From contig NZ_WWHU01000001.1 of the NCBI RefSeq assembly GCF_009862785.1, forward strand, positions 2,046,001 through 2,110,000: DNA of 64,000 nucleotides, given 5' to 3'. The position numbers and the translations under genes were made by a program. Position 1 is the first letter of the stretch. Every line of letters starts with the position of its first letter. This stretch comes from Gordonia sp. SID5947. GTDB lineage: Bacteria; Actinomycetota; Actinomycetes; Mycobacteriales; Mycobacteriaceae. The notes below the pieces were generated by a model that saw only the letters and a list, made by a program, of their open reading frames with translations, had not been told where the DNA came from and made no database searches. Below are positions 31,490-38,899 of the stretch, piece after piece.

Positions 31490-32869
31490 ATGACCGCGTC
31501 GACCACCGACAACCTGCACCATGTGAATTCGGTATTGGCAGATGCGGTCGTCGACGACCGCGAAGCAGGTGTCTACCGGGCGAACCGTCGCATCTTCACC
31601 GACGAGGACATCTTCGAACTCGAGATGAAGCACATCTTCGAGGGCAACTGGATCTATCTGGCCCACGAGAGTCAGCTACCCGAGCCGGGCGACTACTTCA
31701 CGACCTACATCGGCCGGCAGCCGGTGATGATCACACGTGACAAGGACGGCGAACTGCATTGCCTGATCAATGCGTGCGCGCACCGCGGCGCGATGATCTG
31801 CCGGCGCAAGACCGACAACCGGATGACCCTCACCTGCCCGTTCCACGGATGGACCTTCCGCAACGACGGAACGTTGCTGAAGGTGAAGGACCCCGAGGAC
31901 GCCGGGTATCCGGATACCTTCAACGTCAACGGTTCTCACAACCTCACCAAGGTGGCCCGATTCGACAGCTACCGCGGGTTCCTGTTCGGCAGCCTCAATC
32001 CCGACGTGCTGCCCCTCGACGAGCACCTCGGCGACACCCGGACCATCATCGACATGCTGGTCGACCAGTCGCCCGAGGGCCTCGAGGTGGTTCGCGGAGC
32101 ATCGACATACACCTACGACGGCAACTGGAAAGTCCAGGCGGAGAACGGCGCCGACGGCTACCACGTGACCGCCACCCACTGGAACTACGCCGCCACCACG
32201 TCACGGCGCAACACCGGCGAATCGAAGAACGACACGAAGGCCCTCGACGCGGGTGGCTGGGGCAAGTCCGGTGGCGGATACTGGTCGTACCCGAACGGTC
32301 ACCTCTGCCTGTGGACCTGGGCCGCCAACCCGCAGGACCGCCCGCTCTGGGACAAGATGGACGAGCTCAAGAAGGAATTCGGCGACGCCAAGGGCGAATT
32401 CATGGTCAAGGGCTCCCGCAACCTGTGTCTGTACCCGAATGTCTATCTGATGGACCAGTTCTCGACTCAGATCCGCCACTTCCGGCCGATCGCGCCGGAC
32501 AAGACCGAGGTGACGATCTATTGCATCGCCCCCAAGGGTGAGAGCGATGCGGCGCGCACCCACCGCATCCGGCAGTACGAGGACTTCTTCAACGCCTCAG
32601 GCATGGCGACGCCGGACGACCTCGAGGAGTTCCGGTCCTGCCAGCTCACCTTTCGGGCCGAGGCCGCACCGTGGAACGACATGAGCCGCGGTGCCGAACA
32701 CTGGCTGACCGGTCCCGACCCGGTCGCCGAGACACTCGGGATGACCGGCGTGATCTCGGCAGGCATGAAGAACGAGGACGAGGGGCTCTATCCGGTACAA
32801 CACGGCTACTGGCTCGAGACCATGCGCAAGGCCGCCGAGGCCGAGGCATCGTCCTCAACGGTCGCGTAG
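31490..32869 (+). CDS. benA: benzoate 1,2-dioxygenase large (alpha) subunit
   Basis: The 459-residue terminal oxygenase alpha subunit dihydroxylates benzoate to 1,6-dihydroxycyclohexa-2,4-diene carboxylate. The Rieske motif is CAHRGA...CPFHGW (about residues 94-116). The mononuclear iron region is [16 protein letters not shown] (about 216-231), where the bridging Asp and the two His ligands are visible. The ATG has a strong GGAGG. It heads the ben operon, which is divergent from the cat genes. Confidence 0.94.
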
Positions 32870-32939: not shown

Positions 32940-33473
32940 ATGACCGCCACAGAGCCCACGCCGACCACCACCGCTGCGGAAAAGCTCATCACCCAGAACA
33001 TGATCGAGCAGTTTCTCTACCGCGAGGCCCGATACCTCGACGACCGTGAGTTCGAGAAATGGCTCGATTGTTACGCCGACGACGTCGTCTACTGGATGCC
33101 CGCCTGGGACGACCGCGACCGCTTGACCGAGGACCCGCAGCGGGAGATCTCCCTGATCTACTACGGCAACAAGGGCGGCCTGGAAGATCGGGTCTTCCGC
33201 ATCCGGACCGAACGGTCGTCGGCGACCTCACTGCCCGAACCACGGACCAGTCACAACATCAACAACGTGGAGGTCATCGAGCGTCGAGGTGACCTCGTGG
33301 ACGTCCGGTTCAACTGGCACACCATGTATTTCCGGTACAACACCGTCGACCCCTACTACGGCACATCGTTTTACACGATCGACTTCTCGGGTGCGCAACC
33401 GCTGATCCGGCGTAAGACGATCGTGCTCAAGAACGACTACATCCACCATGTGGTGGACATCTACCACTTCTAG
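32940..33473 (+). CDS. benB: benzoate 1,2-dioxygenase small (beta) subunit
   Basis: The 177-residue beta subunit is of the SnoaL-like ring-hydroxylating dioxygenase family: IEQFLYREARYLDDREFEKWLDCYADDVVYWMP at the N-terminus and KTIVLKNDYIHHVVDIYHF at the C-terminus. It is structural in the alpha3beta3 complex with BenA. It lies 70 nt after benA and 12 nt before the benC fusion. Confidence 0.93.
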   Translation: MTATEPTPTTTAAEKLITQNMIEQFLYREARYLDDREFEKWLDCYADDVVYWMPAWDDRDRLTEDPQREISLIYYGNKGGLEDRVFRIRTERSSATSLPEPRTSHNINNVEVIERRGDLVDVRFNWHTMYFRYNTVDPYYGTSFYTIDFSGAQPLIRRKTIVLKNDYIHHVVDIYHF

Positions 33474-33485
33474 GGACATCAGCAC

Positions 33486-36266
33486 ATGAATGTCACGACA
33501 GACCGGAACTCGGCTGCGGCCACCGAGGCCGAACCCAGAACCCACCAGATCGCGCTGGCGTTCGAAGACGGTGTCACACGATTTATCACATGCCGCGAGG
33601 ACCAGACCGTGGCCGACGCGTCGTATCGCCAGCGGATCAACATCCCACTCGATTGCCGCGACGGGGCGTGCGGCACCTGCAAGGCCTTCTGCGAATCCGG
33701 CGACTACGACGGCGGCACCTACATCGAGGATGCGCTCTCCGACGACGAATCCGCCGCCGGCTACGCCCTCCCCTGCTCGATGAAGCCGAGATCCGATCTG
33801 GTGCTCGACATCTCGGCTACCTCTGACATCGCCAAGACGCAGGCGTCGACGTTCACCGGGTCGGTCGTCGGTCTCGATCGGCTGTCGGAGACCACGATGC
33901 GCGTCAGTATCGAGATCCCGAACCGCGGTGACCTGGCGTTCCTACCCGGCCAGTATGTCAACATCGCGGTGCCCGGAACCGATGACGGGGCCGGCAGCCC
34001 GCTCACACGCTCGTATTCGTTCGCCAACGGCCCGCACGAGGAGCGACTCGTCTTCTTGGTGAAGCTGACGCCGGGTGGTGCGATGTCCACCTATCTCACC
34101 GACCGCGCACAGCGTGGGGATCCGGTCACCCTCATCGGACCACACGGTTCGTTCTTCCTCCGCGAGGCGATCCGACCGGTTCTGCTCCTGGCAGGCGGTA
34201 CCGGTCTGGCTCCCATCCTGTCGATGCTGCGCAAGATGCACGACGACGACAGCGACCGTCGAGTCCATCTCATCTACGGGGTGTCGACCGACATCGACCT
34301 GGTCGCGCTCGACGAGATCGAGTACTTCGCCCGTGAACTACCCGGATTCACCTGGGACCACTGTGTTTCCGACCCTGGTAGCGCGGCGTCGAACAAGGGC
34401 TATGTGATGAGCTTGATCGAGCCCGAGCATCTCCATGGCGGCGACGTCGCCGTGTACCTCTGCGGACCGCCCCCAATGGTGGAATCTGTCCGCACCCACA
34501 TCAACGAAGCGGGGATCGAGCCGACGGGGTTCTACTACGAGAAATTCGCGCTGGCCGTTCCCCCGGCGGTGATCGAGGAGGCGTCTGCCGTCTCGACGTC
34601 CGAGCCGGTGAACCCGGTCGGCGACGAACCGGTGATCCCAGCACCCGATGCGCGCGCCGTCGCCGGCCAGATCACCCTTCCGCACAGTGACATCGCACCC
34701 TGGCCCGGCACTGTCGCCCTCGAGGAAGGTGACACCCGTTCCCGCATCGCCGGACAGCGGGTGTGGCCGGCGACCGGGACGACCGTGGAACTCGACCCCG
34801 ACGACGGCGCATTGGCGCCCGTGTCCGCTCGCGGCATCGCCGGTCAAGAGATGTTCGCGCCGACCGGGCTCGAGCCACTTCGGTCCCCGGAATTCACACC
34901 GCCGGCGGTCGCCACGGCCGCGGTACCGGTATCGGGGACCTCCGATACCCCTGTGGCACAGCAGGCCCCGAACGCCACCATGGTCACACCGGAGGGCTAC
35001 CAGATCGGCGAGGAGCACCCCGCCATCCACGAGTCCGACGCGCTGTTCGAAGCACGCGCCGCGTTGGAACTCGGGGCGCTCGAGTTGACATTCGGCCGTC
35101 TCAGCAGCCGACAACTCGCCGGCTACCGGTTGCTCGCGGAGACCACATTGCCGTTCGTCGACGGCGAGCATTTCGTCGATGCCGCGGAGTACACGGAGTC
35201 CAACGCGAACTTTCACGACTATCTGTTCACGCTGACCGGCAACAACCACCTCCTCGAGGCCTACAAGGCGCTCGGGGTGAAGGGCCGGATGGGCGAGGTG
35301 CTGCGCAACGCCACGTGGTGCCATCCACGATGCGCCCAAGACCACGTGGACATCGTGGCGGCATTCGAGTCCGGTGATCGTGAGGCGGCGCGCACGTTGA
35401 TCGCCGACCACGCCGACCGGTCCAAGGAGACCATGCGGCGCGCCATGGCCGACGAGATGGCCACGAACCGACCGCGATTCGTCACCCCCGGCCGATTCGC
35501 CGGCAAGGTGGTGGTGGTCACCGGCGCCGCGCAGGGTATCGGCGCTCAGGCGGCGCGGCGGGTCAGTGCCGAGGGCGGCAAGGTGGTGCTGGCGGATCGT
35601 TCCGACATCGTCGCCGAGGTGGCCGGGCAGCTCGACGCCACGGGCCCCGGTGCGATTCCCGTCATTGCCGACCTCGAATCGTATGACGGCGCCGAGTCGG
35701 TGGTGCGTGCCGCGCTAGGGGCCTACGGTCGCGTCGACGTGCTGATCAACAATGTGGGTGGTGCGATCAACTTCAAGCCGTTCACGGAGTTCACCGAACA
35801 GCAGATCCGGGCAGAGATCGACAGGTCGTTGATGACCACCCTGTATGCATGTCGCGCGGTGCTCCCGTCGATGGTCACCGCGGGCAACGGCGTCATCGTG
35901 AACGTGTCGTCGGCCGCGACGCGTGGCATCCATCGCATTCCGTATTCGGCCGCCAAGGGCGGTATCAACGCCATCACGGCCTCGCTTGCAATGGAATACG
36001 CAGACAGCGGCATCCGAGTGGTGGCCACCGCGCCCGGCGGTACCCAGGCGCCGCCCCGCCGCATCTCTCGGGGCACCCCGGAACCGACGAATCCGACCGA
36101 GCAGCAATGGTTCCAGGCGCATGTCGACCAGACCATCTCGTCGTCGCTGGTGAAACGCTACGGAACACTCGACGAGCAAGCCGCCGCGATCTGTTTCCTC
36201 GCCTCCGAGGAAGCTGCCTACATCACCGGGACCGTACTGCCGGTGGCCGGCGGCGATCTGGGCTGA
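33486..36266 (+). CDS. benCD: BenC reductase - FCD domain - BenD dehydrogenase fusion
   Basis: The 926-residue single ORF joins three modules. Residues 1-355 are BenC: a plant-type 2Fe-2S ferredoxin (C57, C62, C65, C97), an FAD domain with RSYSF, and an NAD domain with GGTGLAPILSML. A Pro/Ala-rich linker covers about 360-510. Residues about 513-665 match an FCD domain, the ligand domain of GntR/FadR regulators, with NANFHDYL, QDHVDIVAAFESGD and ADHADRS histidines, but no HTH. Residues about 668-926 are BenD, an SDR with VTGAAQGIGA, INNVGG and YSAAK, which rearomatises the diol to catechol. BenC and BenD are usually separate proteins. The fusion keeps an in-frame ATG before BenD, so internal initiation is possible. 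Confidence 0.9.
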   Translation: MNVTTDRNSAAATEAEPRTHQIALAFEDGVTRFITCREDQTVADASYRQRINIPLDCRDGACGTCKAFCESGDYDGGTYIEDALSDDESAAGYALPCSMKPRSDLVLDISATSDIAKTQASTFTGSVVGLDRLSETTMRVSIEIPNRGDLAFLPGQYVNIAVPGTDDGAGSPLTRSYSFANGPHEERLVFLVKLTPGGAMSTYLTDRAQRGDPVTLIGPHGSFFLREAIRPVLLLAGGTGLAPILSMLRKMHDDDSDRRVHLIYGVSTDIDLVALDEIEYFARELPGFTWDHCVSDPGSAASNKGYVMSLIEPEHLHGGDVAVYLCGPPPMVESVRTHINEAGIEPTGFYYEKFALAVPPAVIEEASAVSTSEPVNPVGDEPVIPAPDARAVAGQITLPHSDIAPWPGTVALEEGDTRSRIAGQRVWPATGTTVELDPDDGALAPVSARGIAGQEMFAPTGLEPLRSPEFTPPAVATAAVPVSGTSDTPVAQQAPNATMVTPEGYQIGEEHPAIHESDALFEARAALELGALELTFGRLSSRQLAGYRLLAETTLPFVDGEHFVDAAEYTESNANFHDYLFTLTGNNHLLEAYKALGVKGRMGEVLRNATWCHPRCAQDHVDIVAAFESGDREAARTLIADHADRSKETMRRAMADEMATNRPRFVTPGRFAGKVVVVTGAAQGIGAQAARRVSAEGGKVVLADRSDIVAEVAGQLDATGPGAIPVIADLESYDGAESVVRAALGAYGRVDVLINNVGGAINFKPFTEFTEQQIRAEIDRSLMTTLYACRAVLPSMVTAGNGVIVNVSSAATRGIHRIPYSAAKGGINAITASLAMEYADSGIRVVATAPGGTQAPPRRISRGTPEPTNPTEQQWFQAHVDQTISSSLVKRYGTLDEQAAAICFLASEEAAYITGTVLPVAGGDLG

Positions 36267-36295: not shown

Positions 36296-38899
36296 GTGAT
36301 CATCGCGGCGGAGTGTCTCGGACGGGATCGTGAGATCGCCCAACTTCTCGATCGCGCCAGGGCCGCGACCCGACCCGGGTTCATCACCATCGTCGGCGAC
36401 GCCGGCATCGGTAAGAGCACCGTGTTGCAACGGCTCGCTCAGGTCGCCGGGGAAACCGGCGTCGATACCTGTCTGCTCTCGGACGGGGCCGTGCCCGGAA
36501 CAGTCGTCGACGAGATCATCGAGAGCGCCGCGGAGCCCGTGCTGCTGCTCGCCGACGACGCCGACCAGAACGACGACCTCGTCCGCGACGTCGCTGCGCA
36601 GGTGCGGTCCTGCCGCGATACCCCAATACTGGTTGTGCTCGCCGCCTCCCGACCGACGCCCGCGATCAGCGCTCTGCTGCCCGATACGCTTCGCCTGAGT
36701 GGCCTCGATCGTGACGACATCGCTGCCTTGGCGATCGCGCGTGGCCGGGTTCTCCATCCAGTTGTCGTCGATCGGCTGACCGAGCACACCCAAGGCAATC
36801 CCCGCGACGCGATAGCCCTGCTCGACGAATTGCCGTCGGGCGTCTGGTCCCGGGTCGACGTCGAGCTTCCCGCTCCCGCTCGCGTGGTGCTGGACGTTCG
36901 TCGTCGGCTCGCGGTCTGCAAACAGCCGACCCGCGCGCTGATCGAGGCCATTGCCGTGCTCAGCGACTCGGACTCGCTGGGCACGGCCGTTGCCCTCGCT
37001 GAGATCGACGACCCGCTCGCGGCGGTAGACGAGGCCCTGCGGACCGGTTTGGTGGTGGCACCCACCGCGCTGACACCGGCACAGGCCCAGCCACGCGTCG
37101 CCGGAACCCTGATCCGGGCGGCGATTCTGGAGGTCATGGGCATCCGCGCCGTCGGGGACCTCCACCGCCGGGCCGCGTCGGTCGTCGCCGATCCGGTCCG
37201 ACAACTCCACCACCGCGTTGCCGCGACGGCGAACCCGGATCCCGCGCTCGCCGACGCTCTCGACTCACTCGCCAGAGACCGGGGCTCCGACGGTGCCTGG
37301 GCCGAGGCGGCCGGACTGTTTCAGCAAGCCGGTCGTCTGACACCGGATCCCTTGATACGCGAGACACGTTCGACATTGGCGCTGGACGCCTTGCTCGCGG
37401 CGGGCGACTGCGTGGGTGCAGGGGCATTGGTCCCACAGGTGGAGAGCCTTCGGGAAACGCCACTGCGAAATGCCGCCCTGGCCTACCTCGCCATCCTGCG
37501 CGGCCGCGCGGCCGAAGCGCAGGTGCGCCTCGACAGAGCCTGGGACATCGTCAGTTTCGATCGTGATCCGGACACGGCCGCCCTCATCGCGCAACGATAC
37601 GTCCTGCACAACCTGGTCCGGTGCCAGGGAACCGAATTGGTGGAGTGGGCCGACCGCGCCATCACGATGGCGGGCAGCCGGTCGCCCGCCGGTGTCGAAG
37701 CGGCGGTGATCCGCGGTCTCGGCCTGGCGTGGTCGGGCAGGTCCGCCGAGGCGGTCGCCGAATACGCCGCCCTCACCGAACAGATTCGATTCGGGGCGCA
37801 AGCGCAGCGCGCGACGATGGGCCGTGGCTGGCTGCAACTGGGACTCGACGACGTCGGCGCCGCCCGCAGCAATCTGGAGACGGCAGTGTCGATGGCCAAT
37901 CTCGGCGGGTCCGCGCGGATCTCGCTGTGGGCGCTGGGCTGGCTGGCTCGAACGCAGTTCCTCACCGGTGACTGGGAACCGGCATTGCACTCGGTGGAAC
38001 AGGGACGGGTGCTTGCGCGCACCAGCGGGATAGCGCTGGCCACTCCGCTCCTGAATTGGACTGCTGCACAGATCCACTCGCTACGCGGGGATTGGGGCGA
38101 GGCCCACCGCAGCGCGCAGGAGGCGGCGACCGCCGCCGGCGATTACGAGATCATGCGCATTCCTGACCTGCTCGCACGCGGACAGATCGCAGAGGCCGCT
38201 GCCGACTACGGCAAGGTCAGGCGGACCTTGGAGCCGTTGACGCGCATGGCCGAGGAGGTTCCCGGGCTCGGTGAGCCCGGCTGGTGGCCGTGGGTCGATG
38301 TCTTGGCCAATGCGCTCGTCATCGACGGCCAACTCGACGCCGCCGATGATCTGTTACGCCCGTACGAAGAGCTCGTCGAGCAACGCGGACACCGGTCCGC
38401 GTCGGCCCGGCTCAAGTACGCTCGCGGCCGGTTACTCGGTGCGACCGGCGACATACACAAGGCCAGAAACACTTTCGAAGAGGCGCTGGAGCTCTTGGAC
38501 GGGCTGCCGCTCCGTTATGATCTGGCGCGCGTCAACTTCGCGTACGGCCAGACACTGCGTCGCGCGGGCAAACGCCGCGCTGCCGACGTGGTGATGGGAA
38601 CAGCGCGGGAGATGTATCTGTCGCTCGGCGCCGGCACTTACGTGGAGCGGTGCGAACGCGAACTCAAGGCGGGCGGACTCAACGTCCTCCGATCGGATCG
38701 TGATGCGGTCGACCTGACGCCGCAGGAGGAAGCCGTCACCGAGTTCGTCTCGCGCGGCATGTCCAACCGCGAGGTCGCGGCGGAACTGTACATCTCCCCC
38801 AAGACGGTTCAGTATCACTTGACTCGCATCTACGCCAAACTCGGTATCCGATCTCGTTCCGAACTGGCGGCGCTACGCCGGCTTCCGCCGGTCGAGTAG
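36296..38899 (+). CDS. benR: LAL-type LuxR family regulator of benzoate genes
   Basis: The 867-residue protein has an N-terminal ATPase (Walker A GDAGIGKST at about 35-43, Walker B VLLLADDAD), a long helical TPR-like middle, and a C-terminal LuxR HTH at about 806-860 (TPQEEAVTEFVSRGMSNREVAAELYISPKTVQYHLTRIYAKL). This is the large ATP-binding LuxR (LAL/MalT-like) class. In Corynebacterium a LuxR-type BenR follows benABCD, so by position and class this is its counterpart. The last codons and TAG stop come from a REP-like element. Confidence 0.82.
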   Translation: MIIAAECLGRDREIAQLLDRARAATRPGFITIVGDAGIGKSTVLQRLAQVAGETGVDTCLLSDGAVPGTVVDEIIESAAEPVLLLADDADQNDDLVRDVAAQVRSCRDTPILVVLAASRPTPAISALLPDTLRLSGLDRDDIAALAIARGRVLHPVVVDRLTEHTQGNPRDAIALLDELPSGVWSRVDVELPAPARVVLDVRRRLAVCKQPTRALIEAIAVLSDSDSLGTAVALAEIDDPLAAVDEALRTGLVVAPTALTPAQAQPRVAGTLIRAAILEVMGIRAVGDLHRRAASVVADPVRQLHHRVAATANPDPALADALDSLARDRGSDGAWAEAAGLFQQAGRLTPDPLIRETRSTLALDALLAAGDCVGAGALVPQVESLRETPLRNAALAYLAILRGRAAEAQVRLDRAWDIVSFDRDPDTAALIAQRYVLHNLVRCQGTELVEWADRAITMAGSRSPAGVEAAVIRGLGLAWSGRSAEAVAEYAALTEQIRFGAQAQRATMGRGWLQLGLDDVGAARSNLETAVSMANLGGSARISLWALGWLARTQFLTGDWEPALHSVEQGRVLARTSGIALATPLLNWTAAQIHSLRGDWGEAHRSAQEAATAAGDYEIMRIPDLLARGQIAEAAADYGKVRRTLEPLTRMAEEVPGLGEPGWWPWVDVLANALVIDGQLDAADDLLRPYEELVEQRGHRSASARLKYARGRLLGATGDIHKARNTFEEALELLDGLPLRYDLARVNFAYGQTLRRAGKRRAADVVMGTAREMYLSLGAGTYVERCERELKAGGLNVLRSDRDAVDLTPQEEAVTEFVSRGMSNREVAAELYISPKTVQYHLTRIYAKLGIRSRSELAALRRLPPVE

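Follow-up and report, generated by a model that had tools for sequence, protein, structure and literature searches.

We focused on a gene of Gordonia sp. SID5947 that combines parts of the benzoate pathway in one frame. The gene, here called benCD, lies in a 64,000-nucleotide stretch of DNA (NCBI RefSeq assembly GCF_009862785.1, contig NZ_WWHU01000001.1, forward-strand positions 2,046,001 to 2,110,000), which we call the window. The open reading frame (ORF) runs uninterrupted from ATG to TGA and its product is about 98.2 kDa. From the N-terminus, this consists of the BenC reductase, a linker, an FCD domain and the BenD dehydrogenase. BenC feeds electrons from reduced nicotinamide adenine dinucleotide (NADH) to the BenAB oxygenase. 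BenD converts the dihydrodiol carboxylate to catechol and CO2, with formation of NADH. FCD domains are the effector-sensing halves of GntR repressors. Coordinates are collected in Table 1.

Both enzymes score above the curated NCBIfam cut-offs within the single ORF (NF040810 for BenC, 468.6 bits against 430; NF040811 for BenD, 406 bits against 380). Electron supply and the next catabolic step do therefore reside in one protein, as the sequence-only reading of this DNA had proposed. Pfam places Fer2 at residues 27-101, FAD_binding_6 at 131-223, NAD_binding_1 at 234-336 and adh_short at 674-856. The FCD domain (PF07729, residues 520-644) scores 55 bits against a cut-off of 24.3 and has the expected all-helical fold. 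The GntR helix-turn-helix (HTH) model, PF00392, is missing from the seven Pfam families listed up to an E-value of 0.1, which sets the protein apart from GntR/FCD regulators. The residues that we take to matter, from family knowledge, are all in place: ferredoxin C57, C62, C65 and C97, RSYS at 175-178 and GGTG at 237-240 in BenC, with TGxxxGIG and Y820xxxK824 of the short-chain dehydrogenase/reductase (SDR) type in BenD. Complete enzyme motifs in a continuous ORF had been claimed before, and the residues bear this out. The BenC part is predicted to transfer electrons from NADH to BenAB, and the BenD part to oxidise the diol to catechol in an NAD-dependent manner. Elsewhere in the same genome, the best-scoring other matches are 37% identical to the BenC part and 33% identical to the BenD part.

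Table 1. Features of the benCD locus, in window coordinates.
Feature	Position	Strand	Remarks
benA, oxygenase large subunit, upstream of benCD	31490..32869	+	TIGR03229, 808.6 bits (cut-off 780.95)
benB, oxygenase small subunit	32940..33473	+	Ends 12 nucleotides before benCD; TIGR03232, 271.3 bits (cut-off 225.55)
benCD fusion gene, BenC - linker - FCD - BenD	33486..36266	+	926 residues; frame conserved among relatives
BenC reductase part, residues 20-355 (2Fe-2S ferredoxin, FAD and NAD domains)	33543..34550	+	NF040810; Pfam Fer2, FAD_binding_6, NAD_binding_1
Poorly conserved linker, residues 356-513	34551..35024	+	Mean pairwise identity 0.356 (91 distinct fused loci); predicted local distance difference test (pLDDT) below 50 in most blocks
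Linker motif copy 1, RAVAGQ, residues 390-395	34653..34670	+	Strict match
Linker motif copy 2, degenerate RSRIAGQ, residues 418-424	34737..34757	+	Not strict; profile E-value 0.10
Linker motif copy 3, RGIAGQ, residues 449-454	34830..34847	+	Strict match
FCD domain, residues 520-644	35043..35417	+	Predicted helices 514-661 reach nearly to BenD
Metal-site candidates Asn573 (35202-35204) and His577 (35214-35216)	35202..35216	+	118/118 rows
Metal-site candidate His620	35343..35345	+	118/118 rows
Metal-site candidate His642	35409..35411	+	118/118 rows
BenD cis-diol dehydrogenase part, residues 670-926	35493..36263	+	NF040811

The join between BenC, FCD and BenD is genuine. The sequence-only reading had cautioned that a base lost from the assembly might have removed a stop between BenC and BenD, and the case for such an artefact begins and ends with that general caution. 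Third-codon-position G+C is high and in phase throughout (BenC 0.81, linker 0.81, FCD 0.86, BenD 0.82). Among Gordonia genomes, 31 of 59 contain a match to the 926-residue protein (E-value 1e-60). Every such match either extends from residue 13 or earlier through residue 926 or consists of two pieces within one open frame. The genus includes genomes in which the BenC and BenD parts compared match, letter for letter, those of named records of G. alkanivorans, G. namibiensis, G. desulfuricans and G. sihwensis. Hence, the fused copy is not an isolated one among homologues that are otherwise always separate. A match of some kind was found in 136 of 401 genomes of the family. By hand count, the full query (from residue 18 or earlier to residue 926) is covered at 64 places in 63 family genomes, and 14 further genomes hold both parts in a single open frame of 858-1130 residues. 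The 136 matched genomes thus comprise 77 fused by hand count, three with other proteins and a remaining 56, of which 15 were fetched and read. Two of the 64 places, in genomes G200 and G329, had been flagged with a stop; both proved to be open, with frames of 900 and 917 residues that begin in BenC and span all of BenD. Of 396 genomes drawn from the phylum, seven had a match and six of these belong to this family. Because the same continuous frame occurs in many independent genomes, a stop lost near 35420-35520 through sequencing error is excluded. We reject the artefact as vanishingly improbable, given the shared frame, the in-phase G+C and the open frames of the stop-flagged relatives. The earlier reading as a whole is partly supported. 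Its suspected base loss between BenC and BenD fails as a sequencing error and stands as an old evolutionary frame change across the clade.

A protein search with residues 340-700 returned 753 relatives. Read by eye, all but five of the best 120 contain the full domain set, and organism names among these 120 include Gordonia, Mycolicibacterium, Nocardia, Aldersonia and Saccharopolyspora. Their annotations read BenC, diol dehydrogenase or just oxidoreductase. Annotation thus hides the fusion. Two database entries of about 220-240 residues, P0125 and P0123, have the same FCD followed by residues unlike BenD and possibly derive from frameshifted contigs.

The architecture itself is already published. 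In 2019, benC and benD fused with an FCD domain were described in Gordonia alkanivorans YC-RL2 (PMC6362181). This is the same fusion, and the available text of that report says nothing on its spread or history, on a metal site or linker motif, or on how it works. A Rhodococcus benC product was named an FCD domain-containing protein in 2025, with no mechanism in the accessible portion of the text (PMC11858498). Searches of open-licence papers brought up no title or abstract dealing with where the fused protein occurs, with its metal site or with its linker motif. New here are the conservation, the apparent single origin, the intact metal-site quartet and R.[IVLM]AGQ, a motif repeated in the linker. 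The sequence-only reading had overlooked both this motif and the 2019 publication.

Three gene states can be distinguished. Among 136 fetched loci, which are not a random sample, 102 are fused, 30 encode BenC-FCD with a separate BenD and four have no FCD. We started with 148 loci; nine with one part missing (L002-L008, L085 and L087) were skipped and three (L065-L067) had no ORF match. Distinct BenC rows number 122, made up of 91, 27 and four in the respective states. L064 and L068 are one locus, counted twice in the figures of 136, 30, 27, 31 and 118 used here. For the best 80 of 185 named loci, 60 are fused and 18 are BenC-FCD with separate BenD, and the FCD follows BenC within a single ORF in 78 of the 80; these were found with an FCD peptide and are unfit for counting BenC without FCD. 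The fused state occurs in Gordonia, Williamsia, Mycolicibacterium, Mycolicibacter, Amycolatopsis, Saccharopolyspora, Prauserella, Nocardioides, Geodermatophilus and others. The separate state occurs in Rhodococcus (R. jostii, R. opacus, R. ruber NBRC 15591 and others), Dietzia and one Micrococcaceae genome. Some records named Rhodococcus are fused too (Leaf278 and IEGM 1391, for example) and group with Rhodococcoides. One Gordonia genome, G035, has two full fused copies (C1:602178-604988 and C1:3434951-3437743), 76% and 68% identical to that of the window. On two contigs of about 3 kb (L085 and L087), BenD is separate and BenC was not found.

The BenC-FCD proteins of many Rhodococcus and of Dietzia share the reductase and FCD, the place in the operon and the quartet with the fused protein, but their BenD is encoded by a separate, overlapping gene. 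Classical BenC and BenD, as in proteobacterial plasmid copies, are separate genes and the FCD is missing from the copies examined, although each half of the fused protein is an equivalog match to them (NF040810 and NF040811). Of 124 plasmid records with a match, none has a single place covering at least 80% of the query. In four annotated plasmid copies, BenC is about 336-347 residues by coordinates.

We reconstructed the history on a BenC tree of 61 rows rooted solely with five proteobacterial plasmid copies; fused rows were thinned and L068 was dropped. The 26 fused rows group with L052 and L053, which have no FCD, in a single clade (100/100). Two changes account for the fused state, a gain and a loss being the simplest pair, whereas four are required for the presence of FCD. 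A tree of 77 of the 122 distinct rows, built with no outgroup, agrees. The rooted tree has a sparse outgroup, an unsettled deepest fork among the actinobacteria and several long branches; 15 of the 56 separate loci from the family search are included in this reading. The fusion has an apparent single origin, and FCD joined BenC before BenD was added. L058 and L059, also without FCD, are read as losses because they nest within Rhodococcus branches. In L052 and L053 (genus code g29), BenC and BenD are separate, their genes overlap by GTGA, and a single copy of the linker motif is kept near the BenC end. The history can thus be read as BenC alone, then BenC-FCD, then BenC-FCD-BenD, with losses later. 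The gene junction suggests how the last step may have happened. Every one of the 31 separate-gene rows, which stand for 30 distinct loci and take in the four with no FCD, has a benD that overlaps the stop of benC. The overlap is ATGA or GTGA in 28 rows and 1 nucleotide in three, and the relative frame is always identical. Hence, a small frame change would yield the fusion. As to the origin of the FCD, the closest free-standing regulators that turned up were GntR proteins, P0162 for example, which is 39% identical to the Rhodococcus-type FCD over 78%.

The linker is 76-245 residues long in fused loci (median 151) and usually shorter, 29-217 (median 50), where BenC-FCD accompanies a separate BenD. 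The R.[IVLM]AGQ repeats mostly come after an Ala or a Gly and lead into hydrophobic residues. One or more strict copies occur in 81 of 91 distinct fused linkers, none of 27 BenC-FCD linkers and two of four FCD-less tails. The 102 fused linkers contain 181 strict copies, whereas 200 shuffles gave 0.05 on average and never more than 1; since related sequences share copies, this reflects non-randomness and not independent origin. A motif profile was built from 16 instances, of which the window itself supplied two, and 150 of 155 first-look candidates were scored. In the genome of the window it finds the benCD gene at E-values of 6e-8, 6e-8 and 0.10, the next best being 0.49. A DNA pattern for the motif proved too loose and was discarded, as it matched 110 places across the genome and its reversed control 72. 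In the structure model the motif forms short strand pairs of low pLDDT. Dietzia-type linkers (L084, L086 and L048) have a different threefold repeat, [AEG]ARP.G[YFLH], at the same position between BenC and FCD.

A long, weakly conserved linker with repeated short motifs could also be a place of cleavage. The whole ORF would then be translated and cut to give BenC and FCD-BenD, with the motif as processing site. We consider this very unlikely. L052 and L053 keep the motif near the BenC end with neither FCD nor fusion, where a cut would be needless, and no protease or precedent was identified, none having been searched for. Retention of a copy in these loci suggests instead that the motif serves BenC rather than FCD. 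A search for partners by clade-specific residues returned nine such sites for BenA, where 62 fused and 27 separate loci were compared, and five for BenB (86 and 26); it identified no partner.

Asn573, His577, His620 and His642 are kept in all 118 aligned FCD rows, as in the metal-binding FCD subgroup. An HTH-free FCD with its histidine pattern between two enzymes, noted earlier from the sequence, is thereby confirmed. R524 is present in 117 of 118 rows, and E528 and R548 in 118. Among fused loci the FCD varies least of all the parts, less than either enzyme. The same Asn-His-His-His pattern binds zinc in the GntR regulator Atu1419 (Asn137, His141, His192 and His214), where the metal-assisted ligand is citrate (PMC7797058). 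For the FCD of NanR the ligand is sialic acid (PMC8012715). The window FCD differs from these and other metal-binding GntR FCDs (TM0439, LldR/CGL2915) in having no HTH and in lying between two enzymes, and is 13-21% identical to them. From fold and quartet, binding of a metal plus a carboxylate is plausible.

What would such a domain do within an enzyme? It is possible, if doubtful, that the FCD is an allosteric sensor of benzoate, the dihydrodiol carboxylate or a later pathway acid, tuning electron flow through BenC or the activity of BenD, along the lines that the sequence-only reading had hinted at. The effector binding of its metal-assisted relatives, the invariant quartet with its near-invariant companions, and the high conservation in fused loci are consistent with this. 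However, a ligand is so far putative, four loci keep benC and benD without FCD, and a long flexible linker speaks against tight mechanical coupling to BenC. Alternatively, and also tentatively, the FCD may be a dimerisation or stability module only. The quartet would be structural, and fusion to BenD would fix 1:1 amounts of two co-translated enzymes. Atu1419 melts almost 20 C lower when its three His are lost (PMC7797058), and the universal benC/benD overlap in separate-gene rows fits co-translation. Against this, residues beyond the quartet are conserved too, pocket and interface residues taken together.

BenC spends one NADH per benzoate and BenD makes one. The fused pair is therefore redox-balanced, which would make it useful for biocatalysis. 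From the architecture, conservation, quartet and motif, all evident in the sequences, we infer an NADH-recycling BenC-BenD enzyme arranged around a metal- and probably carboxylate-binding FCD hub, with BenC tethered. We regard this as reasonably likely. The BenC arm would pass NADH electrons to BenAB, encoded just upstream, and the BenD end would oxidise the resulting diol, returning the NADH used by BenC at each turnover. The FCD, a regulator-type domain minus its DNA-binding half, would most likely bind metal through the quartet, probably hold a small carboxylate, and act as an oligomerising hub placed almost directly on BenD. BenC would be tethered by a flexible arm of about 155 residues that carries motifs of a docking type, two of them strict and one degenerate. 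FCD would have been added to BenC first, and a later frame change at the overlapping benC/benD would have placed BenD behind it. In the model, at low confidence, a helix at 632-661 runs from the FCD toward the start of BenD near 670, with BenC on its flexible arm. When the full-length model was used for a fold search, SDR structures took up the hits.

Several observations weigh against this hub. The full-length model is poor (pLDDT 69.3; predicted template modelling score 0.47), which leaves the placement of the domains, and the helix link with it, uncertain. The metal site is a candidate read from sequence, and the literature as available contained no measurement of metal, ligand, oligomeric state or activity for any protein of this kind. 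Where BenD is separate, conservation is lower for the FCD (0.629) than for the enzymes (0.710 and 0.742). Strict motifs are missing from ten of the 91 fused linkers, including L033 and L034 of Gordonia; three of the ten are from Mycolicibacter and eight have no AGQ at all. FCD was lost with ben genes kept in L052, L053, L058 and L059. Finally, 28 of 59 Gordonia genomes have no match at 1e-60; hence, nothing indicates that the fusion is needed.

An extended form of the hub, which we put forward as speculation and think rather unlikely, is a benzoate metabolon. A metabolite-gated FCD-BenD core would take the unstable dihydrodiol carboxylate, and BenC arms would dock BenAB or another partner through R.[IVLM]AGQ. 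If so, the sensing domain of a regulator has turned from gene control to flux control within an enzyme, and the repeated motif, which has no known partner, is a new bacterial docking motif. In any case, several actinobacterial families keep a quartet-bearing FCD inside a catabolic enzyme, and where BenC and BenD are fused this domain evolves more slowly than either of them. A direct test of a regulator sensor re-used as a metabolic hub is therefore possible.

Directly 3' of benCD lies a large gene (36296-38899; 867 residues from GTG) that resembles a LuxR-type regulator by eye and has no NCBIfam match at an E-value of 1e-20. The surroundings of relatives L170 and L171 were listed as ORFs. L172, L173 and L174 (genus code g29, including Mycolicibacterium wolinskyi) encode another fusion of a BenC-like reductase, of 845-881 residues, adjoined by an ORF of 369-384 residues that by eye resembles a luciferase-type monooxygenase. 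In L174, Pfam detects Fer2-FAD-NAD followed by a weak FAD_binding_3 match.
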